DNA from: Hypomesus transpacificus
Lineage: Eukaryota > Chordata > Actinopteri > Osmeriformes > Osmeridae
DNA: 64,000 nucleotides
Assembly (NCBI RefSeq): GCF_021917145.1
Contig: NW_025813703.1
Location: 496,001 to 560,000, forward strand
Direction: 5' to 3'
The notes below the pieces were generated by a model, which had not been told where the DNA came from, made no database searches, and saw nothing but the letters and a program-made list of their open reading frames with translations. This document shows positions 4,601-56,536 of this stretch, one piece after another (within the stretch, counting starts at the first letter, position 1; every line of letters starts with the position of its first letter). The position numbers were made by a program, and so were the translations under genes.

Positions 4601-5264
4601 TGAGATATTTGTATTTACAAAGAATACCATCATTATACAACAAAATTCTGGTAACTGCAGTTTACATTTATTTGTTTAGCACTTTTATCCAAAGCAACAT
4701 ACACAAACTCCATAAATGTATTTCTGCCATTAATCAAACTTGCATTTGGATGGTAACTATAAGAAATTTCAATGCACCTACTGCACACTACAGGTTAAGG
4801 CAATAGAATTAAATTCCTGATATACCGTTAAAATGACTTTGACATGAAATGAAAGCTGCTGTAGACTCCTTCAACTCAGTACCTGCCCCTTTAAATCACA
4901 TTGACGTCCATCACAAAAGTGACTAACCAGGAATTACATGTCGACATTCCGCAATAAGGTCTAAATGAATGAAAACATCAAGGAACTCAATACAGCCTTT
5001 GCACAGTGCAATCACAACTCAACATTAGAAAAAGCCCTTTGAATCTGTACATATGGCATGGCTTTTCTATCACAGAGGTTGGAAGAACGCACAAGTAAAT
5101 CAGTGACAGAAATACCACTACAGTGCCACTACAGAACAACAAAAGTCAACTTCCTCTCAAAACTGAATTGCTTAAAAAAACTATTTTCCACATTTGGGTT
5201 GATAAGAAACAAATAACTTCAAAAAGTTACTTTTGATGCCTTTGAAAAATAACAATATATAAAC

Positions 5265-5429
5265 TTTTCCCATATCCAAAAATGCAAGAGGGAAAACTAA
5301 CAATGGGTTGGACTGGCTTGGCAAGGAGTTCAGTGAACATATGAACTGGGTCTAACTGATGTGCACTATATACTTAACTGCAATGAAGCGAGTGTTGTGG
5401 AAGAGATTGATTTTCAGCAGAGGGTACAA
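5265..5429. repeat. Inverted segment in the mtdh-type 3' UTR of unit 1
   Basis: About 165 bases here are the reverse complement of the matching sequence in unit 2 (about 12120-12285), unit 3 (about 17190-17350) and mtdh itself (about 24290-24450), while flanking sequence on both sides stays collinear. Three of four copies agree, so the inversion is the derived state and belongs to unit 1. Confidence 0.9.
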
Positions 5430-5531
5430 GAGTACAATACACTTATGTATAAAATTCTGTACCCAATAATTATTGCATTCAACAGAATGAACAATCCTTT
5501 CGCATATGAATTAAATGGAATCTGGTTGACT

Positions 5532-5599
5532 TCATGTTTCTCTCCGAACCTTCTTCTTCTGGGTCAGATTTGGAGCCTCTAGGATCGGGTCAGACTTTA
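5532..5599 (-). pseudogene. Duplicated mtdh terminal coding exon, unit 1
   Basis: This is a copy of the last mtdh coding exon (24556-24623), with the same CAG acceptor, length, frame (KSDPILEAPNLTQKKKVRRET, then stop) and following UTR. The upstream mtdh exons are absent in this unit. If spliced directly to the ZNF106-like exon ending at 6628, its first in-phase codon would be TAA. It would therefore serve as 3' UTR rather than coding sequence. It is intact but probably no longer translated as mtdh. Confidence 0.85.
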
Positions 5600-6089
5600 C
5601 TGTGAAGAAACCAGTAAAACACAATGTTATCACCATCAAAACATTAGTATTTAAATCAGTTGTAGCTCTTCACTATAGGTATAACAACTGGACTGATTAT
5701 ATAATTGACAACAAATCTTCCAACCATGTTACACATTTCAAACTGCACTAACCCTAACCGATGGTTCTGTAGCTTACTTCTTTAATATAAAATACATATT
5801 AGTTTCAATCAACCACATGCAGAAGTTGCTCAACCACAGATAAAATATTTTTTCCAAATTAGGATTAAGTATTGAAATGGAGTCTAACTTGCTGTGTTAA
5901 ATAAAATCATCCTCTTTTCCCCCAGCGGTAGCTCACATACACACACGTTTCTGTGTGATGGAAAGGGTTGGGTGGGACATCAAATTATTTTTGTAGTTCA
6001 CAAGCTAGAACATTTCGACAAAACATGACCTAAACAAATGCTACCCAACCCTCGAGAAAATATGATTACAGCATATTCCTCTCTTAAAA

Positions 6090-6450
6090 CCAAGTGTATG
6101 TACCCGTTTCCAGACTGGGTGGGAAAGCTTGTCCATCTGACTTGGCAACCTGGAGAGGGGTAGGTGTTGGGGGGTCAGGGTTGACTGTGGAGGGCAAGGC
6201 AGGGTGCAAGGGGCCCAGTGTGTGCAGAGACAGTCAGAGAGGGAGGAGAGCAGGCCACAGGGGGCAGGATGGAGGAGGCCACGAAGGAGTATGACAGCAC
6301 AAGAGGAGTAGGAAGGGAGTTGTGGGTCAACAGTGCTGTAGCTATGTCGTCGTTAGTAGTTACCACAGAGTATCCACTTGCAGATCAGAGGTGGCAGACA
6401 GGAAATGACATCACTGGGTCTCGTTATTGTTTTTGTTCGAAAAAGGAATT
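6090..6450 (-). pseudogene. Decayed continuation of a ZNF106-type exon, unit 1
   Basis: Beyond the TGA at 6451, a second open stretch (about 6175-6366) reads SLPTPLVLSYSFVASS and later SLTVSAHTGP. This resembles the ZNF106 sequence that follows the coiled coil (LPTPFFPLFLEPPSS and onward). Stops separate it from the main frame, so the ancestral large exon seems to have been cut short by frame disruption. The match is short and proline/serine-rich, so it is weaker than the coding exons. Confidence 0.5.
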
Positions 6451-7786
6451 TCAAAAGACGGTGTTTCCCAGAGAAGATTCTTCAACACGCCTGGCTCGCA
6501 GACAATTGATCTCTGTAACCACCTGGGGGAAGAGCTTCCATTTAGAACCATGTACAAAAAAAAAGCCATCCATGAAAAAACAACACAGGTCACACTGCAC
6601 TGACAGTGAAAGGAGGTTTGTGCATACCTGCTGTTTGGTCACCAGGAGCTGCTGAACTTTGATGAAGGCAGCCTGCAGTGAGCTTTGGGCCTGGTTAAGA
6701 GACGTGTCCAAGGCCAGCATGGATTGGCTCAGCTCCTCTTCCTTCAGAGACACGGCCAACAGCTGACCCACCTGGTCTGCTGCACAAAGCACAGTTCATC
6801 AGAGTACAGCCACTGGGACAGTCACACACTGGTAAAGACAGATGCAGCTGGTGCCGATTACAGCCTGAATGCAAAGACAAGTAAAAAGCATATTTTTAGC
6901 ACTGTCCCAATGACCTGATAACATGCCCGAACAAACATTAGCTGCAATAGGGGAAACATTGTATGGACAGGTTAACATACCATTCTTTAGTTTCACTTTC
7001 TGCCTTTTCCCGCTGTGGTCAGCAGATACACCAGGTAATCCGCTATCCTGTAGCAAACAGCAAAAACTGTTGTTGTAAATGTTGCTGGGGGGGTATTTAA
7101 CATGTAAATATACACAAACATACATATCAATGTATTTTTCTCTCTATTTTATATAAACACACACAGAGTATGTAACAAAACCTTCCTGCTCACAGTGTTA
7201 CACCTCTTCTTCTTCTCAGCTCTGTGGACCACTTCTCCATTGTGGCCATGACACAAGTTAGGGTCCTCCAGAGAGACAGGGGACCCTGACACTACTCTGG
7301 GCTGTTCCACCCTCTGAGCCCTGAGCGCTCTCTCTCTGTCAGGTGAAACCCGGGCTGGGGGAGGGGATGGGCCATGGAGCCCAGGCAGGGGAAGGTCCTC
7401 GTCAACACCCAAGCCCTCTGGGTTGGAGAGATGTACCAGCTCAATCCCAAACCTGGAGCAAGATTTAAAGCTAAATCAAACAAAATAACTTTTTCTTTTG
7501 TTCACTCGGTTTGTCACTGGTTCAGTCTGTGAACGCCTCTGAGCCAAAAGTGACTTGTTCACCTGGGCATGCCTTTGACCTCCTCCCTGTTGGCCTCCTG
7601 GGACATCTCCTTCAGGTTGACCTTCGTCTGGGAGTCAGACGAGATCATCAGCTTCTGCAGAGTGGGCTTCAGCTCCGCCTCCTTCTCTTCCAGGGCCTTT
7701 GCCATTTCACTGGCTTTTAAGATCCTGCGTGCTACAGCAGCAACCTTCAAATTAAGCCCTCTGCGCGAGCGCTTCTTCTTTGGCAT
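6451..7786 (-). CDS. ZNF106-derived truncated protein, copy 1 (5 coding exons, 257 aa)
   Basis: Coding exons on the minus strand are 7563-7786, 7194-7452, 6981-7047, 6628-6779 and 6451-6522. Phases match at every junction, with GTGAAC, GTGAGC, GTATGT and GTATGC donors and AG acceptors. The ATG is the first base of its exon, and the upstream untranslated exon ends at 8843. Residues about 40-90 (LKPTLQKLM, then KGMPRFGIELVHL) and about 170-235 (KRQKVKLKN, QVGQLLAVSLKEEELSQSM, KVQQLLVTKQQ, TEINCLRARR) follow human ZNF106 in order and spacing. Zinc fingers before and WD40 repeats after this region are missing. The C-terminal part looks like a coiled coil, and a basic N-terminus (MPKKKRSRR) could be a nuclear signal. 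Full-length ZNF106 binds RNA, but no function can be assigned to this fragment. The frame ends at TGA after NTVF. Confidence 0.72.
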
Positions 7787-8842
7787 CTGAAAAACAGGGA
7801 AAAGCTATTAAGTAAGGAAGAAAAACTATACGTCAGCAATACTAGTCTTCATAAAGCTACATTATATTTTGCTTCTCAAGTGTAGGTAATCATTTAACAC
7901 CATCATGCCCATGTCTTTATATAGGGTGAATACAGGTAAACAACTCTTAATACAAAAAAGGAAAACATTTGGAATGCCATATAGTGTTATTGTGTGTATT
8001 TTGTCAGTACAGGAACATGGTAATCCAAGTATAGCATTAGAGGACAGTTTGATTGATGACCATGAAATATGACATTATAGTGACTTTTATTGAATCATGA
8101 TTCGGACAGTGACTTTCCGAACCATGGACATTAGAAAACATTAGAGGGAATCAAGTGTTGTCTCTGATCACTGTCAAATGATAAACTGTCCTTTATATAC
8201 TTTTGACACTTCCGGTAGATTCCTTCAGAAAAGACATCTAGTTTACTGCGAACAGTAGTCTGCGACGTCATTCACCAACAAAATCCGATTTCGCGTCACT
8301 TCATAGCTGATCTCAAAGCACATGTCATAAGATATTTTTAATTTCGTCCTTCCATTTGTTTTTCTAACTTGACCATTTCACTCAATCAAGGTTAACAGGA
8401 AGTGCCAACAGTGGTTTCCGACTAGCTGCGAAAAGTTGCAATAGAAAAAAACGTTCCACCCAGAACGTTCAGATTTCTGTGCATTCTTAAAGAACTTTCA
8501 ACCACTTGATATTTCTCCGATATTTTATTTTTTGTATGTCGTCTAGAGATACCTCATTTTGAAGAAAACAACCTAGTCTTTCGTTTAAGATGTGTCTCCT
8601 CGTGGTTTTTCCCTTCTATCCAAGGTCGCAAACAAGAACAATGTTAAAGGTTTGATGGCCTATCCATTGCTAGCCTGCACCTATGTAGAGCTACAGTAGC
8701 AAAGACAAATCCTTAGTAGCTGCTAGGTTGCACCAAACACGCATACAAAACTGTATAAAATATAGTGCTAAACTTATCACGCGAATGAAATGCAAGAACA
8801 CATGTTTAGTATCGCCGATGTAGTTAGGCTCTTATTACTTAC

Positions 8843-8910
8843 TGTCAAAATCAAATTTTAAGCTGAGGGCGGCAGGAGTCTCGTGAGTTGTTTTCTTGAC
8901 GTCTTCAGTA
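8843..8910 (-). promoter_or_regulatory. Untranslated first exon and CRE-like promoter site, ZNF106-like copy 1
   Basis: A strong donor (GACA followed by GTAAGTAA) at 8842-8843 lies about 1 kb upstream of the ATG exon. It is kept in copies 2 and 3. Just upstream is TGACGTC at 8897-8903, seven of eight bases of a cAMP-response element, also kept in all three copies. Joining this exon to the coding exon puts A at -3 of the ATG. The transcription start was not determined, so the exon's 5' limit is a guess. Confidence 0.45.
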
Positions 8911-9596
8911 CAGTGGGTAAAATTAAATTGTGATCATCTCTGGGTCTTGCATTAGTGCCAAAGAGTATAGAAGAACAGTTTTAACCTCGAGGAATAATCA
9001 CTAAAGAGTTTGGAAGACTTGTAATCGTGGTACCAGTTGTTGGAACACCAACAGATAGAAAATCAGGAAATGACGTACCTGAATTTAGAGCGTGCACGTA
9101 ACACCTTCCAACTACTGTGGATGACTGATTCTCTCATCTTTTTCCACCTCTTTGTATTTCTTTTGCACCTTTACATCGGGGCAACTGTATTTCTTGAAAA
9201 TAACAAAGTGAACCACGCCTTTCTTTTTACTTGTCTCGCCTTTACTCTTGTTAATTCTTTATTTGCACATCATAATAATGTGAGAAATACCATTATTAAC
9301 ACAATTATGGCAAATACACAGTTTACATGTATTTGCTTAGCATACTTTTGTCCATAGCAACATACACATACTGCATACTAGTGCAGCACATGGACTAGAA
9401 GAGCACAGTTGGAACAGTAGGCTATTACAGTGATTAGTACCAACGAATAAGGTTAGCAAGACAGTACAACAATAGCATCATCCTAACTATGGATCTCATC
9501 TCAACAGTAGCAGTATCAACTATAATATTGTTTATTATTATATTAGATAATATTGCATAATTCCGCTGATGAGCCAGTGGAACAACATTATCATAT

Positions 9597-11840
9597 CAAG
9601 TTCAAGTCTTTTAGGTACAAAGACCAACACAGGGTTAGGCTGGGCACTGAAATTCTTAGGAAAAGACAACGCAAAGCAACCTGGCATATCATGACATATC
9701 AGTACTCAGAACAAATTTACACCTAAGACAAGCATTAACATATAATACAAGAAACCTCCTAAACATACAAAATAATAAACAATAGAGTAAACTGAACCTA
9801 TAATACACATAATATCCTAACTTTATAACCTAACCTAGAGACAAGGGTACACTGTGCAATATTGCTGTAAAAAAACTGTAGTCCAATCTACGTGTGCGAG
9901 ACCGAATGAATCGGTATCGCCAGCCAGAAGGCAATGGGGTAAAAAGACTAATGGGTGGGTGGTAACAGTCTCTTCGGATTCTGCCAGCTTTCCTGATGCA
10001 TCATGTGTGGTAGGTGTCCTATAGGGCAGGGAGAATTCCTGCCGATGATGAAATCAGCAGACCTGTCTACATAGGGCTTTGCGGTCCCTGTCTGTGCAGC
10101 TCCCATACAACACTGTGATGCAACCAGACAGTATGCTCTCTATAGTACATCTGTAGAAGTTAGTGAGGATGACTGGGTCCATGCCAAAGTTCTTCAGTCT
10201 CCTCAGGAAGAAGAGGTGTTTCCAGGCAGCTTTGACCACCTTGTCCGTGTCAGCAGACCAGGTGAGATCATTCCTGATGTTCACCCCGAAGAACCTGAAG
10301 CAGCTGACCTTTTCCACTTCGGATCCGTTGATGTGTAGGGGTGCATTCTCCTCCTCCTGAGGTTATTAAGAGAGGTTATTGTCCTGACACCATGATGTCA
10401 GGGTATCAACCTCCTCTCTGTACGCTGACTCGTCACTGTCAGAAATGAGGCACACGATAGTTGTGTCGTCAGCAAACTTAACAAGGAGGTTGGAACTGTG
10501 CTGTGCCACACAGTCGTGCGTGAACATGGAGAACAGTGTTGGTGATCAGTGTGGATGAGGTGCGGTCACCGATTCTCACCACCTGTGGCCTTCCTGACAG
10601 GAAGTTGAAGATCCACTTGCAAAGGGGGGGTTCTTAGTCCCAGGTCCACCAGCTTGGAGACCAGTCTGGAGGGGATGATGGTGTTGAATGCAGAGCTGTA
10701 GTCAATGAACAGCATCCTCACATACGTATTCCCTTTGTCCAGGTGGGAGAGAGCGGTGTGCATTGGGAGAATGAAGGCATCGTCTTTAAACCTGTTGGAC
10801 CGGTATGCAAACTGCATAGGGTCCAGGGTGGGAGGCAGCGAGGAGCAGATGAATGATTTAATTAGCCGCTCCAAGCACTTCATGATGACAGAGGTCAGTG
10901 CTATCGGGTGATAGTCATTCATGCAGGTGACCTTGGTGTTCTTGGACACAGGGACAATGGTGGTCCTCTTGAAGCAGGTGTGGAGTAGAGACAGGCTGAG
11001 GGAGAGGTTGAAGATGTCACTGAAGACCCCTGCTTGCTGTTCTGTGCAGCCCCTGAGGGCCCTACCTGATTTGCTGTCTGGGCCAGGTGCCTTGCAAGTT
11101 TTTTTTTTTTAAGCAACGCCTCACCTTAGCTACAGTTAGTATAGGCACGCCACTGGCTAGGCCTTCAGGTAGCTCTACTGCAGGAGTGTCACTGTCCCTC
11201 TCAAAGTGAGCGTAGAAGGCATTCAGATGTAAGCCCATTTTGATGCATTGATGGCCTTCAGAAGGTCGTATCTGGCCTTCCTGTACTGATCAGGGTCCCC
11301 AGAGTTAAAGGCGACACACCTGGCTCTCAGGTTGGCCCGGACCACGGCACCAACCCAGGGCTTCTGATTGGGGAAAGACCGGACAACCTTCTTGGGGACA
11401 ATGTAATCGATGCAGTGTTGAATGTAGCTGGAAACAGTATCCGTGTATTTGTTTATGTCTCCATCTACTGTTTCCCTAAATATCAGTCAGGCGGTGGTGT
11501 CAAAACATTACTGTAGGGTCGCCACACTCTCGCCACTCCATAGGTGAACTGTCTTCACAACTGGTCAGACTTCTTTTAGCTTTTGTTTGTATGCGGGAAG
11601 CAGAAGGATGGAGGAGTGATCAGCCTTGCCAAAAGCAGGCCAGGGGTTTGTAGATGCCCCGGAATGTAGTATAACAATGGTCAAGGGTCTGGCCTCCAAG
11701 TGTGGGGAAGTCAATGTGCTGATAGAATTTGGGCAGGACCTTTTTCACCTTGGCTCTGTTAAAATCTCCAACAACAATGGAGGATGCTTCTGGGTGCACC
11801 TTCTCCAGACCATTGTCACATACAGTTCATCCAAAGCATT
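9597..11840 (-). mobile_element. L2/Maui-like non-LTR retrotransposon, 5'-truncated and degenerate
   Basis: Minus-strand fragments of reverse transcriptase are visible. At about 10566-10949 the palm region reads NDYHPIALTSVIMKCLERL and FIDYSSAFNTI. Near 10440-10480 an FADDTT catalytic motif occurs. At 10054-10317 the C-terminal part reads FFGVNIRNDLTW and TNFYRCTIESILSGCITV. Frames are interrupted, so it is inactive. The endonuclease domain is not seen. The minus-strand 3' end near 9600 has two AACTTG-type repeats. The element separates unit 1 from unit 2. The unoccupied join is visible at 22864-22872 in unit 3, where ATCATAT runs straight into GATGCATC. Confidence 0.8.
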
Positions 11841-12382
11841 TGATGCATCTTTTTATTTTCACACTGAGTGGCACTACAGTGGCATTAACTAAATCATCTG
11901 CACATTTATTTAAACAATGTACGAGTTTGGTTATCAAAGTGAATCAAATTTGCAGTTGGATGGTAACTATATTAAAAAAAATACAGAACAACAACACAAG
12001 TAAACTTCCCCCTCAAAACTGAATTGCTTAGAAAACTATTTTCTACATTTGGGTTAATAAGAAACAAATTACTTCAAGAAGTGACTTTTGATGATTTTGA
12101 AAAATAATAATATATCAACTTGTACCCTCTGCTGAAAGTCAATCTCTCCCACAACACTCACTTCATTGCAGTTAAGCAAATAATGCACATCAGTTAGACC
12201 CAGTTCATATGTTCACTGAACTCCTTGCCAAGCCAGTCTAACCCATTGTTAGTTCTCTCTTTCATTTTTGAATATGGGAAAAGTATAATACACTTATGTA
12301 TAAAATTCTGTACCCGATAATTATTGCATTTAAAACAATGAACAATCCTTTCGCATTTGAATTAAATGGAATCTGGTTGACT

Positions 12383-12447
12383 TCATGTTTCTCTCCGAAC
12401 CTTCTTCTGGGTCAGATTTGGAGCCTCTAGGATCGGGTCAGACTTTA
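12383..12447 (-). pseudogene. Duplicated mtdh terminal coding exon, unit 2
   Basis: Same exon as at 24556-24623 but 65 bases long: one lysine codon of the KKK run is missing, so the frame is kept. Acceptor and stop are preserved. No mtdh exons precede it in this unit. Confidence 0.85.
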
Positions 12448-12937
12448 CTGTGAAGAAACCAGTAAAACATGACGTTATCATCATCGTAACATTAGAATTT
12501 AAATCAGTTGTAGCTCTTCACTATAGGTATAACAACTGGACTGATTATATAATTGACAACAAATCTTCCAACAATGTTACACATTTCAAACTGCACTAAC
12601 CCTAAACGATGGTTCTGTAGCTTACTTCTTTAATATAAAATAAATATTAATTTCAATCAACCACATGCAGAAGTTGCTCAACCACAGATGAAATAGTTTT
12701 TCCAAATTAGGATTAAGTCTCTAAATGGAGTCTAACTAGCTGTGTTAAATAAAATCATCCTCTTTTCCCCCAGCGGTAGCTCACATACACACGTTTCTGT
12801 GTGATGGAAGGAGTTGGGGGGAACATCAAATAATTTTTGTAGTTCACAAGCTAGAACATTTCGACAAAACATGACCTAAACAAATGCTACTCAACCATCG
12901 AGAAAATATGATTACAGCATATTCCTCTCTTAAAATC

Positions 12938-13296
12938 AAGTGTATGTACCCGTTTCCAGACTGGGTGGGAAAGCTTGTCCATCTGACTTGGCAACTTGGA
13001 GAGGGGTAGGTGTTGGGGGGTCAGGGTTGACTGTGGAGGGCAAGGCAGGGTGCAAGGGGCCCAGTGTGTGCAGAGACAGTCAGAGAGGGAGGAGAGCAGG
13101 CCACAGGGGGCAGGATGGAGGAGGCCACGAAGGAGTATGACAGCACAAGAGGAGTAGGAAGGGAGTTGTGGGTCAACACTGCTGTAGCTGTGTCGTCGTT
13201 AATAGTTACCACAAAGTATCCACCTGCAGATCAGAGGTGGCAGACAGGAAATGACATCACTGGGCCTCGTTGTCGTTTTTGTTCGAAAAAGGAATT
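12938..13296 (-). pseudogene. Decayed continuation of a ZNF106-type exon, unit 2
   Basis: Equivalent of 6090-6450, with the same proline/serine-rich open stretch (about 13021-13212) separated from the main frame by the same stop. Sharing the defect with unit 1 puts the truncation before the duplication. Confidence 0.5.
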
Positions 13297-14632
13297 TCAA
13301 AAGACGGTGTTTCCCAGAGAAGATTCCTCAACACGCCTGGCTCGCAGACAATTGATCTCTGTAATCATCTGGAGGAAGAACTTGCATTTAGAACCATGTA
13401 CAAAAAAAAAGCCATCCATGAAAAAACAACACAGGTCACACTGCACTGACAGTGAAAGGAGGTTTGTGCGTACCTGCTGTTTGGTCACCAGGAGCTGCTG
13501 AACTTTGATGAAGGCAGCCTGCAGTGAGCTTTGGGCCTGGTTAAGAGACGTGTCCAAGGCCAGCATGGACTGGCTCAGCTCCTCTTCCTTCAGAGACACG
13601 GCCAACAGCTGACCCACCTGGTCTGCTGCACAAAGCACAGTTCATCAGAGTACAGCCACTGGGGAAAGTCACACTGGTCAAGACAGATGCAGCTGGTGCT
13701 GATTACAGCCTGAATACAAAGACAACTATAAAGCATATTTCTAGCACTGTCCCAATGACCTGACAACATGCCAAACAAACACGAGCTGCAATAGGCAAAA
13801 CATTGTATGGACAGGTTAACATACCACTCTTTAGTTTCACTTTCCGCCTTTTCCCGCTGTGGTCAGCAGATACACCAGGTAATCCGCTATCCTGTAGCAA
13901 ATAGGCAAAACCTGTTGTTGTAAATGTTGCTGGGGGGATTTAACATGTTTATGTACACAAACATACATATCAATGTATTTTTCTCTCTATTTTATATAAA
14001 CACACACAGAGTATGTAACAACACCATCCTGCTCACAGTGTTACACCTCTTCTTCTTCTCAGCTCTGTGGACCACTTCTCCATTGTGGCCATGACACAAG
14101 TTAGGTTCCTCCAGAGAGACAGGGGACCCTGATGCTACTCTGGGCTGTTCCACCCTTTGAGCCCTGAGCGCTCTCTCTCTGTCAGGTGAAACCTGGGCTG
14201 GGGGAGGGGATGGGCCATGGAGCCCAGGCAGGGGAAGGTCCTCGTCAACACCCAAGCCCTCTGGGTTGGAGAGATGTACCAGCTCGATCCCAAACCTGGA
14301 GCAAGATTTAAAGCTAAATCAAACAAAATAACTTTTTCTTTTGTTCACTCGGTTTGTCACTGGTTCAGTCTATGAACGCCTCTGAGCCAAAAGTGACTTG
14401 TTCACCTGGGCATGCCTTTGACCTTCTCCCTGTTGGCCTCCTGGGACATCTCCTTCAAGTTGACCTTCGTCTGGGAGCCAGACGAGCTCATCAGCTTCTG
14501 CAGAGTGGGCTTCAGCTCTGCCTCCTTCTCTTCCAGGGCCTTTGCCATTTCACTGGCTTTTAAGATCCTGGATGTTACAGCAGCAGCCTTCAAATTAAGC
14601 CATCTGTGCAAGCGCTTCTTCTTCTTTGGCAT
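13297..14632 (-). CDS. ZNF106-derived truncated protein, copy 2 (5 coding exons, 258 aa)
   Basis: Coding exons are 14406-14632, 14037-14295, 13825-13891, 13474-13625 and 13297-13368. Lengths are identical to copy 1 except for one extra in-frame lysine codon at the start (MPKKKKRLHRW). All donors and acceptors are intact, and the third donor region reads AGTG followed by GTATGT. The last exon starts with ATG ATT instead of GTG GTT, giving MITEINCLRARR. The ZNF106-like blocks (LKPTLQKLMSSSG, GMPRFGIELVHL, QVGQLLAVSLKEEEL) are present. It lies between the untranslated exon ending at 15699 and the mtdh-type terminal exon at 12383. Function is unknown. It lacks zinc fingers and WD40 repeats. Confidence 0.72.
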
Positions 14633-15698
14633 CTGTAAAAAAGTGAAAAGCTATTAAGTAAGGAAGAAAAACAATGCGTCAGCAGTACTAGTCTTCATAA
14701 AGCTACATTATATTTCACTTCTCAAGTGTAGGTAATCATTTAACACCATCATGCCCATGTCTTTATATAGGGTGAATACAGGTAAACAACTCTTAATACA
14801 AAAAAGGAAAACATTTGGAATGCCATATTGTGTTATTGTGTGTATTTTGTCAGTACAGGAACATGGTAATCCAAGTATAGCATTAGAGGACAGTTTGATT
14901 GATGACCATGAAATATGACATTATAGTGACTTTTATTGAATCATGATTCGGACAGTGACTTTCCGAACCATGGACATTAGAAAACATTCACAGTAACAAG
15001 AGTAGAGGGAATCAAGTGTTGTCTCTGATCACTGTTAAATGATAAACTGTCCTTTTTACACTTTTGACACTTCCGGTAGATTCCTTCAGAAAAGACATCT
15101 AGTTTACTGCGAACAGTAGTCTGCGGCGTCATTCACCAGCAAAATGCGATTACGCGTCACTTCATAGCTGATCTCAAAGCACATGTTATAAGACATTTTA
15201 AATTTTGTCCTTCTATTTGTTTTTCTAACTTGGCCATTTCATTGAATCAAGGTTAACAGGAAGTGCCAATAGTGGTTTCCGACTAGCTGCTAAAAGTTAC
15301 AATGGAAAAAACGTTCCACCCAGAACGTTCAGATTTCTGTGCATTCCTAAAGAACTTTCGACCACTTGATATTTCTCCAAATTTGTATTTTTTTCTATGT
15401 TGACCAGAGATGCCTTATTTTGAAGAAAACAACCTAATCTGTCGTTTAAGATGTGTCTCCTCGTGGTTTTTCCCTTCTATCCAAGGTGGCAAACAAGAAC
15501 AATGTTAAAGGTTTGATGGCCTATCCATTGCTAGCCTGCACCTATGTAGAGCTTGCAAAGACAAATCCTTAGTAGCTGCTAGGTTGCACCAAACACGCAT
15601 ACAAAAATGTATAAAATATAGTGCTAAACTTAACACGCGAATGAAAGGCAAGAATACATGTTTTGTATCGCCGATGTAGGTAGGCTCTTATTACTTAC

Positions 15699-15765
15699 TG
15701 TCAAAATCAAATTTTAAAGCTGAGGTCGGCAGGAGTCTCGTGAGTTGTTTTCTTGACGTCTTCAG
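15699..15765 (-). promoter_or_regulatory. Untranslated first exon and CRE-like site, ZNF106-like copy 2
   Basis: The GACA/GTAAGTAA donor at 15698-15699 and TGACGTC at 15754-15760 are conserved with copies 1 and 3. The 5' limit of the exon is not known. Confidence 0.45.
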
Positions 15766-16447
15766 TAGTGGGTAAAATTAAATTGTGATCATTAGTCGGA
15801 TCATTGTCTTACATTAGTGCCAAAGAGTATAGAAGCACAGTTTTAACCTCGAGGAATAATCACTAAAGAGTTTAGAAGACTTGTATACTCTTTGTAATCG
15901 TAGGAACGGTTGTTGGAACACCAACAGATAGAAAATCAGGAAATGACGTACGTGAATTTAGAGCTTGCACGTAACATCTTCCAACTACTGTGGATGACTG
16001 ATCCTCTCATCTTTTTCCACCTCTTTGTATTTCTTTTGCACCTTTACATCGGGGCAACTGTATTTCTTGAAAATAACTTGAAAATAAGTGAACCATGCCT
16101 TTCTTTTTACTTGTCTCGCCTTTACTCTTGTTCGTTCTTTATTTGCACATCATAATAATGTCAAGAAATACCATTATTAACACAATTATGGCAAATACAC
16201 AGTTTACATGTATTTGCTTAGCATACTTTTGTCCATAGCAACGTATACATACTGCACATTAATGCAGCACATGGACTAGAAGAGCACAGTTGGAACAGTA
16301 GGTTATTACAATGATTAGTACCAAGGAATACGGTTAGCAAGACAGTGCAACAATAGCATCATCCTAACTATGGATCTCATCTCAACAGTAGCAGTATCAA
16401 CTATAATATTGTTTATTATTATATTAGATAATATTGCATACTTCCGC

Positions 16448-16920
16448 AGACATTTTCTTGATTATTTTATGCATACTGTTGAGGTAACTGACATTTGCCC
16501 ATTATTACTGTCATTATGTTATTACTGAATGCAAGTGTAGGAATTGGAATGTGTTGCACTGGGGAACTGAATTAGTGACAAACACTTGACCAAGCAGATG
16601 GCAACCACGGCACTCCTGTGTAGCATGCTCGTACAGCATAAGCATCATCAGTGCTCATTGATAGTTCAAGTTTAAAGTTAAAAGAAAGCTAAGAAAATTA
16701 CAACAAGTTTAACCTACTCCCTTTGGTTGTGCGGCCAATGAAATGTATGTCATTTCAATTTACATTACGTTTAGCTATACGTTTCTTTGTGTAGTGTGTA
16801 AATTAATATGTTTTATGTCTTTTTATTTCTCACGGCAAAACAAGACCTTGTGTGTGTTGTACATACAATAAATTGCCAGTAAAAGGAATTCTCAAGTTGT
16901 CATTGAACTGGGGGGAGCTA
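16448..16920. repeat. Unidentified insertion between units 2 and 3
   Basis: About 470 bases interrupt the unit join: they follow TTCCGCAGA of unit 2 and precede CATGATGCATC of unit 3, replacing a short sequence kept in unit 3's own upstream end (22840-22866). The segment has AATAAA near its right part on the plus strand (about 16867), which could mark a retrotransposon or LTR 3' end. I could not name a family. Confidence 0.45.
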
Positions 16921-17457
16921 CATGATGCATCTTTTTATTTTAACACTGAGTGGCACTACAGTAGCACTAACTAAATCATCTGCACAATTATTTAAACAAT
17001 GTACGAGTTTGGTTATCAAAGTGAATCAAATTTGCAGTTGGATGGTAACTATATATATAAAAAAAATACAGAACTACAACAAAAGTAAACTTCCCCCTCA
17101 AAACTGAATTGCTTCGAAAAACTATTTTCTACATTGGGTTGATAAGAAACAAATTATTTCAAAAAGTGACTTTTGTATAATAATATATCAACTTGTACCC
17201 TCTACTGCAAGTCAATTTCTCCCACAGCACTTGCTTCTTATTGCAGTTAAGCATATAGTGCACATCAGTTAGACCCAGTTAATATGTTCACGGAACTCCT
17301 TGCCAAGCCAGTCTAACCCATTGTTAGTTCTATCTTTCATTTTTGAATGCGGGAAAAGTATAATACACTTATGTATCAAATTCTGTACCCGATAATTATG
17401 GCATTTAACACAATGAACAATCTTTTTGTTTATGATTTGTATGGAATCTGGTTGACT

Positions 17458-17518
17458 TCATGTTTCTCTTCGAACCTTCTTCTTCTGGGTCAGATTTGGA
17501 GCCTCTAGGATCGGATTA
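17458..17518 (-). pseudogene. Duplicated mtdh terminal coding exon, unit 3 (frameshifted)
   Basis: The copy is 61 bases long instead of 68. Seven bases are missing just after the acceptor, which shifts the frame relative to mtdh, though the QKKKVRRET coding part and stop are still visible in another frame. This supports the view that this exon is not under coding constraint in the duplicated units. Confidence 0.85.
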
Positions 17519-17989
17519 CTGTGAAGAAACCAGTAAAACATGACGTTATCATCATCATAACATTAGTATTTAAATCAGTTGTAGCTCTTCACTATAGGTA
17601 TAACAACTGGACTGATTATATAATTGACAACAAATCTTCCAACCATGTTACACATTTCAAACTGCACTAACCCTAAAATAAATATTAGTTTCAATCAACC
17701 ACATGCAGAAGTTGCTCAACCACGGATAAAATATTTTTTCCAAATTAGGATTAAGTATCTAAATGGAGTCTAACTTGCTGTGTTACATAAAATAATCTTC
17801 TTTTCCCCCAGCGGTAGCTCACAAACACATGTTTCTGTGTAATGGAAGGGGTTGGGGGGAACATCAAATAATTTTTGTAGTTCACAAGCTAGAACATTTC
17901 TACAAAACATGACCTAAACAAATGCTACCCAACCATCTAGAAAATATGACTACAGCATATTCCTCTCTTAAAATCAAGTGTATGTACCC

Positions 17990-18223
17990 AGTGTGTGCAG
18001 AGACAGTCAGAGAGGGAGGAGAGCAGGCCACAGGGGGCAGGATCGAGGAGGCCACGTAAGGGTTTGACAGCACAAGAGGAGTAGGAAGGGAGTTGTGGGT
18101 CAACACTGCTGTAGCTGTGTCGTCGTTAGTAGTTACCACAGAGTATCCACCTGCAGATCAGAGGTGGCAGACAGGAAATGACATCACTGGGCCTCGTTGT
18201 CGTTTTTGTTCGAAAAAGGAATT
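17990..18223 (-). pseudogene. Decayed continuation of a ZNF106-type exon, unit 3
   Basis: Counterpart of 6090-6450 with the same open stretch but truncated by a deletion of roughly 100 bases at about 17991. The same stop precedes it. Confidence 0.45.
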
Positions 18224-19906
18224 TCAAAAGACGGTGTTTCCCAGAGAAGATTCGTCAACACGCCTGGCTCGCAGACAGTTGATCTCCGTAACCACCTGGA
18301 GGAAGAGCTTCCATTTAGAACTACGTACAAAAAAAAAGCCATCCAAGAAAAAACAACACGGGTCACACTGCACTGACAGTGAAAGGAGGTTTGTGCGCAC
18401 CTGCTGTTTGGCCAACAGGAGCTGCTGAACTTTGGTGAAGGCAGCCTGCAGTGAGCAGCGGGCCTGGATGAGAGAAGTGTCCAAGGCCAGCATGGACCGG
18501 CTCAGCTCCTCTTCCTTCAGAGACACGGCCAACAGCTGACCCACCTGGCCCGAGTCTGCTGCACAAAGCACAGTTCATCAGAGTACAGCCACAGGGGACA
18601 GTCATGCGCTGGTCAAGACAGATGCAGCTGGTGCCGATTACAGCCTGAATACAAAGACAACTACCGTATTTTCCGGACTATAAGTCACACCTTTTTTCCC
18701 TAGTTTGGCTGGTCCTGCGACTTATAGTCAGGTGCAACTTATATATAAATATATATATAATTTAACATGTTTTTAAATGTTAATTCATACAGACTGACAT
18801 GAACCAATGAGTTCAATGGATTCAGTGATGTGGAATGAGATTGGGAGTTTAGCGAAAACTCTCTTATCGGTATCTTGCTTGTTGGACTCGCTAGTTTGTT
18901 ATGTTAATTTAGCCTATTCAGCCTTCCAGGTATGTTTTTTATGCTATTGTGTAGCTGAATAACTGTTAATGTGTTACGTTAATATACCGGACACCTATTC
19001 ATCCTGTTGTTCTGTGTGCTATTGTGTAGTTGAACAACTTGCCTTTCCAGATTAAATGTCTGTTTAAACATTCTACGGACAGGTTAACATACCACTCTTT
19101 AGTTTCACTTTCTGCCTTTTCCTGCTGTGGTCAGCAGATACACCAGGTAATCCGCTATCCTGTAGCAAACAGGCAAAAACTGTTGTTGTTGTAAATGTTG
19201 CTGGGGGGATTTAACATGTAAATGTACACAAACATACATATCAATGTATTTTTCTCTCTATTTTTATATATACACACAGAGTATGTAACAACACCATCCT
19301 GCTCACAGTGTTACACCTCTTCCTCTTCTCAGCTCTGTGGACCACTTCTCCATTGTGGCCATGACACAAGTTAGGGTCCTCCAGAGAGACAGGGGACCCT
19401 GACGCTACTCTGGGCTGTTTCACCCTCTGGGTCCTGAGCGCTCTCTCTCTGTCAGGTGAAACCTGGGCTGGGGGAGGGGATGGGCCATGGAGCCCAGGCA
19501 GGGGAAGGTCCTCGTCAACACCCAAGCCCTCTGGGTTGGAGAGATGTACCAGCTCGATCCCAAACCTGGAACAAGATTTAAAGAAAAAAACAAAATACAT
19601 TTCTTTTGTTTTTGTTCACTTAGTTTGTCAATGGTTCAGTGCAGCCCTATGAATGCCTCTGAGCCAAAAGTGACTTGTTCACCTGGGCATGCCTTTGACC
19701 TGCTCCCTGTTGGCCTCCTGGGACATCTCCTTTAAGTTGACCTTCGTCTGGGAGCCAGATGAGATCATCAGCTTCTGCAGAGTGGGCTTCAGCTCCGCCT
19801 CCTTCTCTTCCAGGGCCTTTGCCATTTCGCTGGCTTTCAAGATCCTGCGTGCTACAGCAGCAGCCTTAAGATGAAGCCCTTTGCGCCAGTTCTTTTTCCT
19901 TGGCAT
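18224..19906 (-). CDS. ZNF106-derived truncated protein, copy 3 (5 coding exons, 259 aa)
   Basis: Coding exons are 19683-19906, 19307-19565, 19093-19159, 18401-18558 and 18224-18295. Compared with copy 1 the only length change is six extra bases in exon 4 (AADSGQVGQLL instead of ADQVGQLL). The fourth donor reads GTGCGC, and all other splice sites are standard. The N-terminus MPRKKNWRKG differs most, while the LKPTLQKLM, RFGIELVHL and SLKEEEL blocks are kept. The frame ends at the same TGA after NTVF. Intron 3 contains a pogo-type terminal sequence and intron 1 a broken pogo element, so the gene spans more than copies 1 and 2. No function can be assigned. Confidence 0.72.
18663..19065. mobile_element. 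pogo/Tc1-type non-autonomous element fragment
   Basis: The block begins TACCGTATTTTCCGGACTAT and continues with an inverted partner GCGACTTATAGTC. This terminal sequence is widespread in vertebrate TA-targeting DNA transposons. Units 1 and 2 show the unoccupied site: unit 2 reads GACAACTATAAAGCAT at about 13720, and the break falls at its TA. The right end is not a clean inverted repeat, and about 75 bases of the unit are missing there. Confidence 0.65.
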
Positions 19907-19994
19907 CTGAAAAACAGGGAAAAGCTATTAAGGAAGAAAAACAACACGTCAGCAGTATTAGTCTTTCCTAAAGCTACATTAGAATATTTCACTT

Positions 19995-21335
19995 TATCCA
20001 TATTTTTCTGAAAATAAACCGCTTTAAGTATAAACCGCACCCCACCAGAATGGGAGCTTTGTGTTTGTAAATCTGAGGATAAGCCACGCTGGAATATAGG
20101 TCGCACTTGATATGGGAACAATGAAGCAATGCACGAGTATAGGCGATCTGACAGCATGCCGTTGTGTCACACACTTTAGTGGATAGTATGTCCAGAAATG
20201 TTTCGTGTATTGTATAAATATTACAAACATTTATTTTACAGTCAATGTTTATTAGCAATTAAATCACCAATGCTGGCAACTGTCCGAGTTTGGGGAGCAT
20301 AAAAAAACATGGGTAGCCTACTTCATCCATGTTCTCAACTTTACTTGGTGGGAAATTGTGTTCTCTTATTATCCCATGGACCAATGATTTTAAAATCCTG
20401 TATGCCTACTTTTTCCTCCCAGCCATCAGGTAATTTCTGTCCAACATCTGTTCGGGCTCTGATAGATAAATTGTTCCTCTTCAGAAAGCGGAAACACCAA
20501 GATGGGCTAGACGTAAAATCTCTATGTCCCATTTCCTTTGCCATTACACTGGCTTTTAGTCGAATAGCTACCGTACTCCCGGTTCTCCCGGCATCTTGCT
20601 GGGCTGTGATCCAGGAAGCCATATTCTTCTCTAAATCAGGCCAGCGGCACCGTTGACCTCGACCAGCGGCTTTGGCAGTGGTTTTCTGCTTTTTCAGGTC
20701 ATCTTCGCGTAGTCTCCACTCACGAACCTGTCTTTCATGTACTCCATGTTCTCTTCCTGCGGCACGGTTTCCTTTATGTTTCGCAAGTTCAACTACCTCC
20801 AGCTTCTTGGAATTTGTATAAGATCTTCTAGAAGATGATAGCGCAGCTACAGATTTATTGCAAGGCATTTTTTATATTTAAACTTTTCTTTTAACACGAG
20901 GGAATGTGAATACAAAGTGACTGCTAGTCTGCAGTAAGTAGTGATGAGTTGTTGGATTCAAGGACTCGGGAGTACAGTCCTCTCAAAGAGTGATTGGTTC
21001 CTTTTTCTCGTGGCCGCGCATCGGGAGTTTTACATAGGCTCATTCAGGCTCGAGGAAACAAAAATGATTCGTTCATTTCCCGACCGGGTCTTCGGATCCT
21101 TTTGTTCATTCATCCTTGAATGAACGAGATTCAAAGAACCGTTAAGTCCGTAAAATGTTACTATAAAACTTCCAGCAGTGACTGCGGACAACCAAAACTA
21201 GCCTATTTCACGGCAGGCTGGAAATGGCAGAGCGAGTGAAACGAAACGTCTGCATTAATTTGTTCCGTCTTTATTTACACGGACATGGCTAAAATTGCAT
21301 GGTCTTATTGACAATAAAGTTGACTTTGACATTAA
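19995..21335. mobile_element. Composite insertion in intron 1 of copy 3, including a pogo element
   Basis: Comparison with unit 2 puts the left break right after TTTCACTT (19994), where the sequence turns into TATCCATATTTTTCTG, a diverged version of the pogo-type terminus at 18663. Unit sequence resumes at about 21335 (CAGTTTGATTGATGACCA), with about 170 bases of the unit lost. The block contains a transposase fragment at 20341-20868. A matching right terminal repeat was not found. An imperfect inverted repeat (ATTCGTTCATT and GAATGAACGAG) occurs at about 21060-21130. Confidence 0.6.
20341..20868 (-). pseudogene. pogo-family transposase, N-terminal DNA-binding half only (175 aa)
   Basis: Open frame of 175 codons. 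Residues about 16-60 (YTNSKKLEVVELAKHKGNRA, then HERQVREWRLREDDLKK) form a Brinker/Psq-like helix-turn-helix, as in POGK-type proteins. Residues about 80-150 (WPDLEKNMASWI, SPSWCFRFLKRNNLSIRART) form a CENP-B-type helix-turn-helix. The DDE catalytic domain that should follow is absent: the frame stops 26 residues after QKLPDGWEEK. It is most likely an internally deleted element. The DNA-binding half itself shows no break, so a repressor-like product is possible but unproven. Confidence 0.75.
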
Positions 21336-21597
21336 AGGGCAGTTTGATTGATGACCATAAAATATGATATTAGTGACTTTTATTAAATCATGATTCGTAC
21401 TATAGCCATATGGATATAGAAATTGGTTCAGCATCAATCTGCATTAAAACATTCACAGTAATAAGAGTTGAGGAAATCAAGTGTTATCTCTGCTCACTGT
21501 TAAATGTTTAACTGTCCTTGTTATACTTTTACTGATCCTACAGATCCTCAGAAAATACATCTCGTTTATTGCAAACAGTCTGCGACGTTGTCTATAA

Positions 21598-21812
21598 CAG
21601 TGGTTCCCAACCCTGGTCCTTAAAGCACCCTGTCATACCTGTTTTAGATGTTTCCCTGCTCCAACACACCTGATTCAAATGAATGGTCATAAGAAGGCTT
21701 CTGCACAGCTGGATAACGACCCATTCATTTGAATCAGGTGTTTTGGAGGAGGGAAACATCTAAAACATGCAGGACAGGCCAGTGCCCTGAGGACCAGGGT
21801 TGGGAACCACTG
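21598..21812. mobile_element. hAT-like MITE (215 bp) with 8-bp target duplication
   Basis: Long terminal inverted repeats: CAGTGGTTCCCAACCCTGGT at the left and its complement ending at 21812, with further internal inverted pairing (ACACCTGATTCAAATGAATG and complement). Flanks GTCTATAA (21590-21597) and GTCTAGAA (21813-21820) match at seven of eight bases and have central TA, as for hAT insertions. It lies in intron 1 of ZNF106-like copy 3 and is absent from units 1 and 2. Confidence 0.88.
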
Positions 21813-22249
21813 GTCTAGAATGATTCACCCACAATGCGATTTGGCGTCACTTCATAGCAGATATCAAAGCACATGTGATGGCCAGCCACATTTTTAACTT
21901 CGTCCTTCTATTTGTTTTTCTAACTTGGCCATTTCACTCAGTTTACAGGAAGTGTCAACAGTGGTTTGTTGACTAGAGATAGCCTGCGTTATTTTGAAGA
22001 AAACAACCCAATCTTTCGTTTACGATGTCTCCTCGTGGTTTTGCCTTTATCAAAGGTAGCACGCAAGAAAGGTTTGATGGCTTATCCATTGCTAGCCTCA
22101 AATACACACTGTAGCCGATGTAGAGCTATGAGAACTCATAGTAGCTGCTAGCGGATAAAATCCTGTCTAAAATAAAGTGCTAAACTTATCATGCAAATGC
22201 AAGAACAAATGTTTTGTCTCACCGTTGTAGGTAGGCTCTTATTACTTAC

Positions 22250-22305
22250 TGTCAAAATCTAATTTCAAAGGTGAGGGCGGCAGGAGACGTTTTCTTGACG
22301 TCTTC
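22250..22305 (-). promoter_or_regulatory. Untranslated first exon and CRE-like site, ZNF106-like copy 3
   Basis: The GACA/GTAAGTAA donor at 22249-22250 and TGACGTC at 22296-22302 are kept as in the other copies. The intron to the ATG exon is about 2.3 kb here because of transposon insertions. Confidence 0.45.
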
Positions 22306-22876
22306 AGTAGCTAGTAGTAGGCTACTGTTGAATTAAATTGTGTTCTTCTCTTGCGTTAGTGACAAAGACTATAGAAGCACAGTTTTAACCTCAAGGAATA
22401 ATTGTCAGAGTTTAGAAGACTTGTATAGCCTACTCTTTGTAATCGTGGTACCGGTTGTTGGAACACCACCGGATAGAAAATCAGGAAATTACGTAGCTAC
22501 CTGAATGTAGAGCGTCCACGTAACATCTTCCAACTACCGTGGATGAATACAGCACAAAAACAACTATACAGCACAATTCAGGTAACTACACAGTTCACAT
22601 GTTTTTGTTTAGCACACTTTTGTCCATGCGAACGTATACATACTGCACACTAGTGCAGCACATGGACTAGAAAGGCACAGTTGAAACAGTAGGCTATTAC
22701 AGTGATTAGTACCAAGGAATAAGGTTAGCAAGACAGTGCAAAAATTGCATCATCCTAACTATGGATCTCATCACAACAGTTAGTATCAACTATAATATTG
22801 TTTATTATTATATTAGATAATATTGCATAATTCCACAGATAAGCCAGTGGAACAACATTATCATATGATGCATCTT

Positions 22877-24555: not shown

Positions 24556-27500
24556 TCATGTTTCTCTCCGAACCTTCTTCTTCTGGGTCAGATTTGGAGC
24601 CTCTAGGATCGGGTCAGACTTTACTGTGAAGAAACCAGTAAAACATGATGTTATCATCATCATAACATAAGTATTTAAATCAGTTGTAGCTCTTCACTAC
24701 AGGTATAACAACTGGACTGATTATATAATTTACAGAAAATCTAAAATTACCAACCGTGTTACACATTTCAAACTGCACTAACCCTAACTGGTCGTTCTAT
24801 AGCTTACTTCTCTACCATTAACAGAAATATTTGATTTCAATCAACCACATGCAGAAGTTGCTTGACCATGGATAAGATATTGTTTCCAAACTTGCATTAG
24901 GTAACCGGACAAATATTTTTTTTGTTCACAAGCTAGAACATTTCTACAAACTTGATGGTCTTAACAAATGCTGCCCAACCATTTAAAAAATATGACTACA
25001 GCATTAATAAAGCATGATTGTATATTGCTAGTTTAAATCTAGTTTACATTTTTCCTTTTCGAAGACAAGGAATTCATACACTATTCTACTGTGAAACCTA
25101 CTTCAAAGCTTGCAGTTTTTTCTGTGCATATTGGTCAGCATTGGCAAGAAAGCGGTCTTACTCTGAGAGCATGGCATGGTGGCTAACTGCTTGGTAGAGT
25201 TTACTGCTGGAGGAAGCGCTTCGCTTATTTGGGTCTTAGGTAACATGTTAGTCACTGGTGGGACAGAACTCTCAGGGTTCACCTACGCAAACAGAAGTAC
25301 AATCAACCCGTAATTTTCCTGATTCTAACGTCTTTGTTTAGTTTTTTTTGTACACATCTAACTACAGATAGGATCTTTCGCTCTCAATCGTTTTTTGTTC
25401 AACTGTTCTTACCTGTGCTGGAACACCCTCATCCTCCAGTTTCTTCTTCTTTTTCTTCTTCTTCTTTGATTTGGCAGCTCCCCCACTGGCAGCATCCTCC
25501 ATTTCCTCATCCGACATCTGGGTTGTCAACAAACATCAGCCAATTAGGAACTCTTCCACCAGGCTTCTGAATTTGACATGGACAAAGCCACCAGAGAACA
25601 ACACAAGATTCGACGGATACACAATCAACAGAGTGTCTGGATGAACTGGATTTTGTGTAACTTAATCTTTAGATTTAGAACAAGAGACTAGAAGATGACT
25701 CATTTCATGAACATTGATTCAGATGCTTTTATGCGTAACTGTGAGTGGACAGCCACGTCCGACCTGGCCCACCTGGGGTGCAGCCTGCTCCTGTGGGGGC
25801 GGGGCCGGGGCCTCCACCACCACGGGCTCCTCGTAGTTCCCCCACAGCTCAGTCGGGGCGTTCCAGTCAGAGCTGGGGTCCGCTGCATCGATGCCATCTG
25901 GTGACACACCATGTCATTACAGATTGATATGAAAACAAACTTTTCAGGTGTTGAACACTTCAAACTTTGACCAAAACAAATAAACCACAAAATGTTCAGT
26001 GAAGCTGTGCTCAGACTTGACCTCAAATTAAGGACAAGTCGTTCCAGGTTATTTTCCTTCAGTTGTAGGCATAATTGCGTGCATGCGCTAGATTATATGG
26101 TATGCTAGATTTTAAATCTACTAATCGTTACCATGCCCTCGTTGGATTTTAAAAACTGAGCTCTGCTTCCTTTGATTGTTAGAAAAATTTCAAGGTAAGG
26201 ATGTGCTTACTGGACCAAACGTCCTCACAAGCGGGCTGATTATCCCGTTGCCGATCAACAGGAAAATGGGGCTTGGGCTCCGAGGCTAGAATTAATACAA
26301 AAATAAAAGAATGAAGAACACAAAGAGACCATAAGCATATTTCAATACATAAAGCCATTAAATAGTCGGATAATGTGATTTTGAACTTGACTTTTATTTA
26401 CCTGTTGTGTTCATTCCGGGCACAGAGAAAGTCACAGGTTTGAGTTCAGGCTTGATCCTGCTGTCAACCCCACTCCATGTCCCTGATTTGTGTAACGCAT
26501 TGTTAATATGCAGTACAAACTAACTTGAACTGATTTTCACCATTGAGATAGCTTGACAACTGGCAAGAAAATCCAATTATGGCATAGTCTTGACCAAATG
26601 GGTATTTGTATTGATATTGGTACAGAACTGTTTAGTCAGAGCATTTGCTCTGAACGCTTAGACCCTTCCACATCCAAAGCATTCCAGTTCCCAGTAGTGT
26701 GACAATAGTATAGTATTTTTGCTATGAGCATTTGATTTATATTAGCCAGGACAGTGGATTCATTGGAATTTTCACAATCATACAACCAATGTTCATTGAC
26801 CTACCAAATAGTTTTTTTAAATGATTGTATGTGAAACTATTTGTCTTTAGACCAGCTTCCGGTACCTTCCATATCTGGCTTCCAGGTCTGGGACTCAGGG
26901 TTTCTGTGTCGGGGGCCAGTGGTTATGGCCGGCCAATCTTTGATGGCCATCTGGGTGGGAAGTTTTGTGGACACATCTGCCCATCCTCCCCCGTTTACTG
27001 AGGGCTCCTCTCTCCAGTGGGGGTTCACTGAGTGTGAAAAGAGCGCTGTTAAATTATTACCTCAATGAGACATTGTGCTGTGTGTTGAGAGAAACACTTT
27101 CACAATAGTTGGGCCATTTTGCTGGCTGAATTAAAAAATGACATATGATTAATAAAAAAGGCCTCTGAAATGACAGTTATTTTCTCCCTCAGCCTCCACT
27201 ATGTAACAATAACAAGGATGAGGAGAAGAGATAACCTGGTGCAATGGAAACATCTGCTTTTCCACCAGTCCTTGTCCGCTGGGGTTCTGCAATAAATTAA
27301 GGCAGCGTTTAATTGACTGAGTGTCTTTGGATTTCAGACTTTTAGATGCATAGTCCATCCGAAGGTTCAATATGATTAAAACAGACAAAATAAGGTATAA
27401 AAACAAACACAAATTCCATGTTATTTTTATGACAGACCAACTGTGAGCTATAGGGGTGCTAGTTGGAAACAAGGAAGCAGAAAAACACTTCTCGGAACCA

Positions 27501-48230: not shown

Positions 48231-48256
48231 AGTGTGTGTGTGTGTGTGTGTGTGTA
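48231..48256. repeat. (GT)n microsatellite
   Basis: A short GT dinucleotide run in the pard6g intron, in a wider GT-rich patch to about 48300. Confidence 0.8.
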
Positions 48257-49517: not shown

Positions 49518-49668
49518 TAAGAAGCTCTCTCTACCTCTCTCTCCCCCCCCCTCTCTCTCCCTCTCCTCTCTCCCCCCCCTCTCTCTCTCCCCCCCCTCTC
49601 TCTCTCCCCCCTCTCTCTCTCCCCCCTCTCTCTCTCTCCCCTCTCTCTCTCTCCCCTCTCTCTCTTTT
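49518..49668. repeat. Polypyrimidine (CT/C) tract
   Basis: About 150 bases of CTCTCT alternating with runs of five to nine C on the plus strand (purine-only on the minus strand). Open frames across it on both strands are low-complexity artefacts. Confidence 0.9.

Positions 49669-54701: not shown

Positions 54702-54706
<5 letters not shown>

Positions 54707-54759: not shown

Positions 54760-54760
<1 letters not shown>

Positions 54761-56534: not shown

Positions 56535-56536
<2 letters not shown>

Follow-up and report, generated by a model that had tools for sequence, protein, structure and literature searches.

The locus considered here raises the question of how a gene can be put together from parts of other genes, and whether the product of such an event codes for a protein. 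It lies in a window of 64,000 nucleotides (nt) from the delta smelt, Hypomesus transpacificus (contig NW_025813703.1, positions 496,001 to 560,000), and coordinates below are those of the window unless another place is named. A first-pass annotation, made from the sequence alone, had placed three collinear units here, and they are found at that place, all on the minus strand, downstream of mtdh and upstream of laptm4b. Judged by sequence homology, the units are a lineage-specific chimeric gene family built from an internal part of ZNF106 and the 3' end of mtdh, and we put at roughly 70% the probability that they are protein-coding genes under constraint. In addition, unit 3 appears to have acquired the DNA-binding part of a transposon.

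A chimera of ZNF106 and mtdh sequence

Exons A to E have canonical splice sites and a single open frame in all three units, and give predicted products of 257, 258 and 259 amino acids (aa) in units 1, 2 and 3, respectively. When spliced, the coding frame contains no stop, compared with 10-14 in each of the other two frames. NCBI already models all three genes. LOC124488096 (P0001) and LOC124488095 (P0002) are the unit 1 and unit 2 products minus one residue, a difference that lies where exon C meets exon D, at a NAGNAG acceptor; isoform pairs of this sort are normally called from RNA reads. Unit 3 is modelled twice (P0003 and P0004) under the automatic name 'zinc finger protein 106-like', which thus labels a gene whose products gave no zinc-finger match. 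The start codon is followed by a basic N-terminus (MPKKKRSRR in unit 1), which we take to resemble a nuclear localisation signal, and for roughly the first ten residues no matching DNA is found in ZNF106. At the other end is a ten-residue tail, EESSLGNTVF in units 1 and 2 and DESSLGNTVF in unit 3.

Analysis of the rest of the genome identified the parent of the coding exons. Exon B matches the three units and one further place (C26), and exons D-E match the units, C26 and a weak fifth place on C3. The C26 locus is an intact ZNF106, modelled as 'zinc finger protein 106 isoform X2 [Hypomesus transpacificus]' (1352 aa; P0008, contig 9,256,486). Units 1 and 2 each align to it as a single stretch of about 1.77 kb at 72%, introns included, and unit 3 aligns in two pieces at 73-74%; in the proteins, from 152/229 to 159/231 residues are identical. 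The copied segment is about 1.65 kb long and runs from within the large exon of ZNF106 to just beyond exon F. Since the introns are kept, it was genomic DNA and not mRNA that was copied, and a retrocopy origin is rejected. Five ZNF106-homologous exons had been described previously, and five are indeed coding, but a sixth, exon F, is also present in the units, past the stop and unused. A deletion of 38 nt that took the donor of the parental exon E is found in 3/3 units, and because of it translation enters the former intron and then meets a stop, which accounts for the new tail. The place on C3 (C3:6547389-6547553, L026) is a more distant ZNF106-like sequence, 55% over exon D, perhaps the other teleost ZNF106 paralogue.

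ZNF106 is defined by C2H2/CWCH2 zinc fingers (PMC4706115), and WD40 repeats are present in the smelt parent. As the first-pass annotation had held, both are missing from the units. No WD40 repeat was found by Pfam in P0001, P0003, P0004 or the Osmerus relative P0005 at E 0.1, and no zinc-finger family in the unit proteins, although Pfam also gave no C2H2 match on the one parent zinc-finger exon that was tried. The units therefore resemble ZNF106/Zfp106, by DNA and protein homology, as the source of exons A-E and of the unused exon F, and differ from it in lacking both kinds of domain, in having their own N-terminus and tail, and in their genomic place. Elsewhere in the products little was recognised. 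On unit 1 exon A Pfam gave two weak matches below cut-off and on exons B and D-E none, and a search of solved structures returned only two matches (E 0.93 and 0.95).

The 3' part of the units matches the last intron, the terminal exon and part of the 3' untranslated region (UTR) of mtdh in pieces of 82-95%. It had been claimed that each unit has the mtdh terminal exon and 3' UTR; the homology is there, but a long piece of 3' UTR is confined to unit 1 (4714-5095, 95% over 383 nt) and the exon is eroded in unit 3. Since the stop lies in exon E, the exon derived from mtdh must belong to the 3' UTR, and it is rejected as a coding part of the product. The likeness to MTDH (LYRIC) is accordingly limited to its last intron, terminal exon and 3' UTR pieces, which are untranslated in the units; no match to the LYRIC domain was found in P0001, P0003, P0004 or P0005. 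The junction between ZNF106 and mtdh sequence is identical in 3/3 units and, together with the common 38-nt lesion, this implies that the chimera was formed once, in agreement with the earlier proposal that a ZNF106 fragment became attached to the 3' end of mtdh and that the product was afterwards multiplied in tandem. At 5263-5430, unit 1 also carries a piece of mtdh 3' UTR that is inverted relative to mtdh 24290-24457 and 95% complementary to it.

Upstream of exon A, each unit has a predicted 5' exon. The first-pass annotation had described it as conserved, which holds for the GTAAGT donor and for TTGACGTCTTC, present in 3/3, but had overlooked that the DNA is repeat-related. With one query, genome matches outside the units number at least 37, all within window 8396-8648 at 69-72% (at least 42 in total, 5 in the units). 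With another they number at least 39 (at least 42 in total, 3 in the units); 9 of these overlap parts of 8640-8931 at 69-78%, and the other 30 fall in a separate stretch, 9026-9102. In the single alignment inspected, that of the exon 1 copy L031, the donor is kept and TTGACGTC is not. The possibility that the 5' exon is unique promoter DNA is rejected in view of this relation to dispersed repeats.

A transposase region in unit 3

The interval from exon 1 to exon A contains, in unit 3, some 1.3 kb of inserted DNA (19995-21329) with no counterpart in units 1 and 2. Within this insert, a transposase frame has matches to BrkDBD and HTH_Tnp_Tc5 (Pfam, E 3.3e-9 and 4.5e-14), the arrangement found in Passer, of the pogo family, and in its descendant POGK (PMC7386202). 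On this domain arrangement, rather than on a tree, the insert is assigned as a Passer-type pogo transposon. NCBI isoform X2 (411 aa) starts in the transposase frame and includes both motifs, its last transposase base before the in-frame junction with exon A being 20410; in isoform X3 (358 aa) the junction follows 20572 and only BrkDBD is retained. At the level of these models (P0003 and P0004), host- and transposase-derived domains are found in one reading frame, and the catalytic domain DDE_1 is absent from both. Four places in the genome match the transposase frame, unit 3 included. The match on C9 is 88% over the whole length and this relative carries DDE_1 (E 1.1e-19), that on C7 is 86% over bases 1-369 with the frame broken, and that on C356 is 92% over 89 bases. 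None of the transposase frame, the repeat-related 5' exon, the NCBI models or the Osmerus relative had been noted in the first-pass annotation.

As modelled, the two isoforms are organised like a host-transposase fusion gene (PMC12062965), in which a DNA-binding exon from an intronic transposon is alternatively spliced to host exons. Unit 3 differs from the described fusion genes in that its host part is itself a recent chimera and in that the fusion is a predicted one, taken from NCBI models, with putative expression and DNA binding. With POGK and POGZ (PMC7386202, PMC11887677) it shares Passer-type DNA-binding motifs fused to another domain, BrkDBD with HTH_Tnp_Tc5 in the case of POGK. For POGK and POGZ retention of DDE_1 has been reported, whereas the unit 3 models lack it, and the partner domain is different, which makes the capture an independent event. 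It is possible, though we suggest it only tentatively, that unit 3 is a working and very young transcription regulator, in which a Passer DNA-binding domain is spliced in frame to a lineage-specific coiled-coil protein derived from ZNF106.

Other mobile sequences were seen nearby and at the C9 locus. An insertion in unit 3 intron 1 (21589-21822) resembles a small DNA transposon in having inverted ends, CAGTGGTTCCCAACCCTGGTCC ... CAGGGTTGGGAACCACTGG, and one in intron C-D (18664-19065), which starts near TACCGTATTTTCCGGACTATAAG, is reminiscent of a short DNA transposon. On C9, two Passer-like transposase frames lie head to tail (L035:2592-5418, C9:5257592-5260418). The second, of 589 aa, continues from the tail of the first by way of an acidic linker, its first 320 aa comprising a DDE_1 tail, BrkDBD and HTH_Tnp_Tc5, and the pair could be a domesticated double gene.

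Relatives, constraint and rival explanations

In a search among proteins, with 2223 candidates in 6 clusters (E up to 10), the chimera was found in delta smelt, in Osmerus eperlanus and, as an unspliced copy, on one further contig; the clusters were made at 90% identity, and the search reaches only proteins of similar length. A second search (5297 candidates, 6 clusters) added only a Denticeps ZNF106. The O. eperlanus relative (P0005, gene LOC134040805) has 247 aa, is 83% identical by BLAST and ends in EESSLGSTVF; its cluster has three members, among which an O. mordax copy could be hidden. In Osmerus, as in smelt, the chimera and its parent are apart, the relative being on a 14.4 Mb contig and ZNF106 on a separate contig of 20.9 Mb.

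The split between Hypomesus and Osmerus is put at about 24 million years ago, with a genome-wide synonymous divergence (Ks) of 0.15 between H. nipponensis and O. eperlanus (PMC12083275). Synonymous divergence (dS) between unit and ZNF106 parent is 0.26-0.31, between units 1 and 2 it is 0.040, and between these and unit 3 it is 0.083-0.084. Over 4.2 kb units 1 and 2 differ by 5.7%, and unit 3 differs more. In a tree made from an alignment without the scattered ZNF106 columns at both ends, units 1 and 2 are joined with a support of 91, and the separation of the three smelt units from Osmerus is weaker, at 72. Stem lengths in this tree are 0.198 for the units and 0.064 for smelt ZNF106. In relative-rate tests private changes were more numerous in the units than in ZNF106 in 16/16 comparisons (chi-square 0.61-4.90, exceeding 3.84 in 3/16), so that faster change in the units is only suggested, the comparisons being non-independent.

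The reading frames are probably under constraint, because the chimera has remained about 88% identical between Hypomesus and Osmerus (198/224, 199/224 and 201/226) where neutral evolution would leave 73.7% (sd 1.9) at d 0.15. In simulations that start from unit 1 and take the genome-wide Ks of H. nipponensis as applicable, none of the 2000 neutral runs made for each value of d (0.10, 0.13, 0.15 and 0.20) came to 88% or higher. The corresponding region of ZNF106 itself has 210/236 identical residues between the same two species. Furthermore, gaps between copies are of 3 or 6 nt only in the coding exons, whereas introns have gaps of other lengths too.

Several results weigh against the view that the units are constrained protein-coding genes. 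The ratio of nonsynonymous to synonymous change (dN/dS) is 0.54-0.74 among copies and 0.80-0.93 to the parent, and 6/6 of the 95% intervals include 1. Exons are not consistently better kept than introns (92% in exon A, 94-96% in intron B-C), and three stop-free copies arose in 20% of 5000 neutral runs. The captured transposase domain compared with its C9 relative has dN 0.114 and dS 0.148 over 152 codons, a ratio near neutral. The predicted structure of the unit 3 model P0004 is poor overall, with a mean predicted local distance difference test score (pLDDT) of 48, although it contains a helical helix-turn-helix region at residues 71-140 (pLDDT 60-83) and a long helix over exons D-E (pLDDT 63-87 at residues 351-400). 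Finally, both the donor of exon F and the acceptor of the mtdh exon survive, so that a junction would lie 347, 347 and 236 nt past the stop in units 1, 2 and 3. A junction well beyond the stop usually marks a transcript for nonsense-mediated decay, and decay is predicted here on that rule.

A rival explanation is an array that is transcribed but decaying, has no selected function, owes its similarity to recent duplication and gene conversion, is subject to nonsense-mediated decay and has exonised the transposase passively. The dN/dS intervals, and the debris of exon F with its spliceable intron, agree with this. So does the comparison of unit 3 with unit 1, in which the exon block is 92-93% identical against 71-83% in the 5' flanks, as conversion would give, although the farthest flank is at 91%; conversion may in this way make unit 3 seem younger than its true age. 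However, such decay does not explain why frame and tail have been kept in Osmerus at an identity well above neutral, and the neutral chance that neither lineage acquired a stop is 0.034 at d 0.15, counting substitutions alone. We therefore consider it unlikely. The units could instead act as noncoding RNA, titrating regulators of mtdh through a shared 3' UTR of up to 95% identity. The long piece of mtdh 3' UTR in unit 1 is the kind of sequence this needs, but it is kept in that unit only and the preserved reading frames are left unexplained, which makes such a role very improbable. The last possibility is an assembly artefact, whether a false duplication or a misplaced ZNF106 fragment. False duplications do occur in assemblies (PMC9516828), and a misassembled full-length ZNF106 had been named in the first-pass annotation as what could undo its claim, but an artefact is rejected given the divergence and private insertions of the copies, the intact ZNF106 on another contig and the annotated O. 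eperlanus relative sharing the tail.

Genomic setting and proposed origin

From low to high coordinates the minus strand carries laptm4b, units 1-3, mtdh and a gene with PDZ and PB1 exons (Table 1 gives the features of the units). The name laptm4b is that of the first-pass annotation, the single exon put to Pfam having matched no family; in mtdh, the LYRIC domain is at 29182-29601 by Pfam. The last gene, at 42512-60555 (PDZ exon 42512-43594, PB1 exon 60172-60555), is presumably of PARD6 type. Between units 1 and 2 there are minus-strand LINE-like fragments (long interspersed nuclear element; 9838-11826), with a match to the reverse transcriptase family RVT_1 at 10569-11108 (E 8.2e-8).

Table 1. 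Positions in the window of the parts of the three units and of related sequence
Feature	Position	Strand	Remarks
Unit 1 coding exons	6451..7786	-	257 aa; A 7563-7786, B 7194-7452, C 6981-7047, D 6628-6779, E 6451-6522 with stop
Unit 2 coding exons	13297..14632	-	258 aa; A 14406-14632, B 14037-14295, C 13825-13891, D 13474-13625, E 13297-13368 with stop
Unit 3 coding exons	18224..19906	-	259 aa; A 19683-19906, B 19307-19565, C 19093-19159, D 18401-18558, E 18224-18295 with stop
Unit 1 remnant of ZNF106 intron E-F and exon F	6104..6450	-	beyond stop; F donor kept at 6104
Unit 1 mtdh last intron, terminal exon and 3' UTR	4714..6074	-	terminal exon acceptor before 5599
Unit 2 mtdh-derived pieces	11860..12920	-	terminal exon acceptor before 12447
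Unit 3 mtdh-derived pieces	16943..17958	-	terminal exon degraded (sequence lost); acceptor before 17518 kept
mtdh terminal coding exon	24556..24623	-	source of the units' 3' part, by alignment to units
Unit 1 predicted 5' exon	8843..8906	-	donor at 8843; TTGACGTCTTC at 8896; in repeat-related DNA
Unit 2 predicted 5' exon	15699..15763	-	TTGACGTCTTC at 15753
Unit 3 predicted 5' exon	22250..22305	-	TTGACGTCTTC at 22295
Unit 3 transposon-derived stretch	20001..21282	-	approximate ends; inside the 19995-21329 insertion
Transposase DNA-binding frame	20410..20868	-	BrkDBD and HTH_Tnp_Tc5; joined to exon A in NCBI isoform X2

The history of the units can be read from the sequence. The ZNF106 genomic segment was copied beside a partial mtdh duplicate, and the 38-nt deletion took away the exon E donor and fixed the new stop. 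The chimera has a basic N-terminal start of its own and a predicted 5' exon in repeat-related DNA, and the whole module was multiplied in tandem. A Passer-type pogo transposon entered intron 1 of the third copy, and in the NCBI isoforms its DNA-binding region is joined in frame to exon A. If the units are constrained protein-coding genes, their expression would yield small proteins of the nucleus that are helical towards the N-terminus, disordered in the middle and end in a long helix taken from ZNF106. They could bind some of the partners of ZNF106 although they have neither its zinc fingers nor its WD40 domain. The fusion in unit 3 might bring this module to DNA sites recognised by the Passer transposase, in the way that POGK and POGZ do with other partner domains.

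ZNF106 itself has roles in RNA metabolism, localises to the nucleolus and has an internal promoter that gives a short isoform (PMC4706115, PMC5283830). A mapping of its central region was not found in the available parts of these papers, and for that reason a role of the unit proteins as adaptors of, or competitors for, ZNF106 partners is an inference and a rather doubtful one. In the open-licence literature no paper was found under the identifiers and names of the unit genes, and none of the 12 papers listed, out of 1,290 matches on chimeric or tandem duplicate genes in teleosts, mentions ZNF106. The earlier statement that no gene of this form has been described thus holds for the literature searched, although the databases already contain models of all three.

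The array would be a recent example of the assembly of a new vertebrate gene. To our knowledge, the starting state is no longer visible in many transposase-fusion genes. Here one genome holds the parent gene, two copies without the fusion, a fused copy and relatives of the captured transposon, and a relative of the chimera is present in Osmerus. Because these coexist, the copying of the segment, the loss of the splice site, the new first exon, the amplification and the capture can each be tested separately. If unit 3 is indeed a working regulator, its two fusion-free sister genes, about 4 and 10 kb away, could share its partners, and the locus would offer a natural before-and-after series of transposase capture, in which the host gene, too, is a composite, made of ZNF106, mtdh and repeat DNA.

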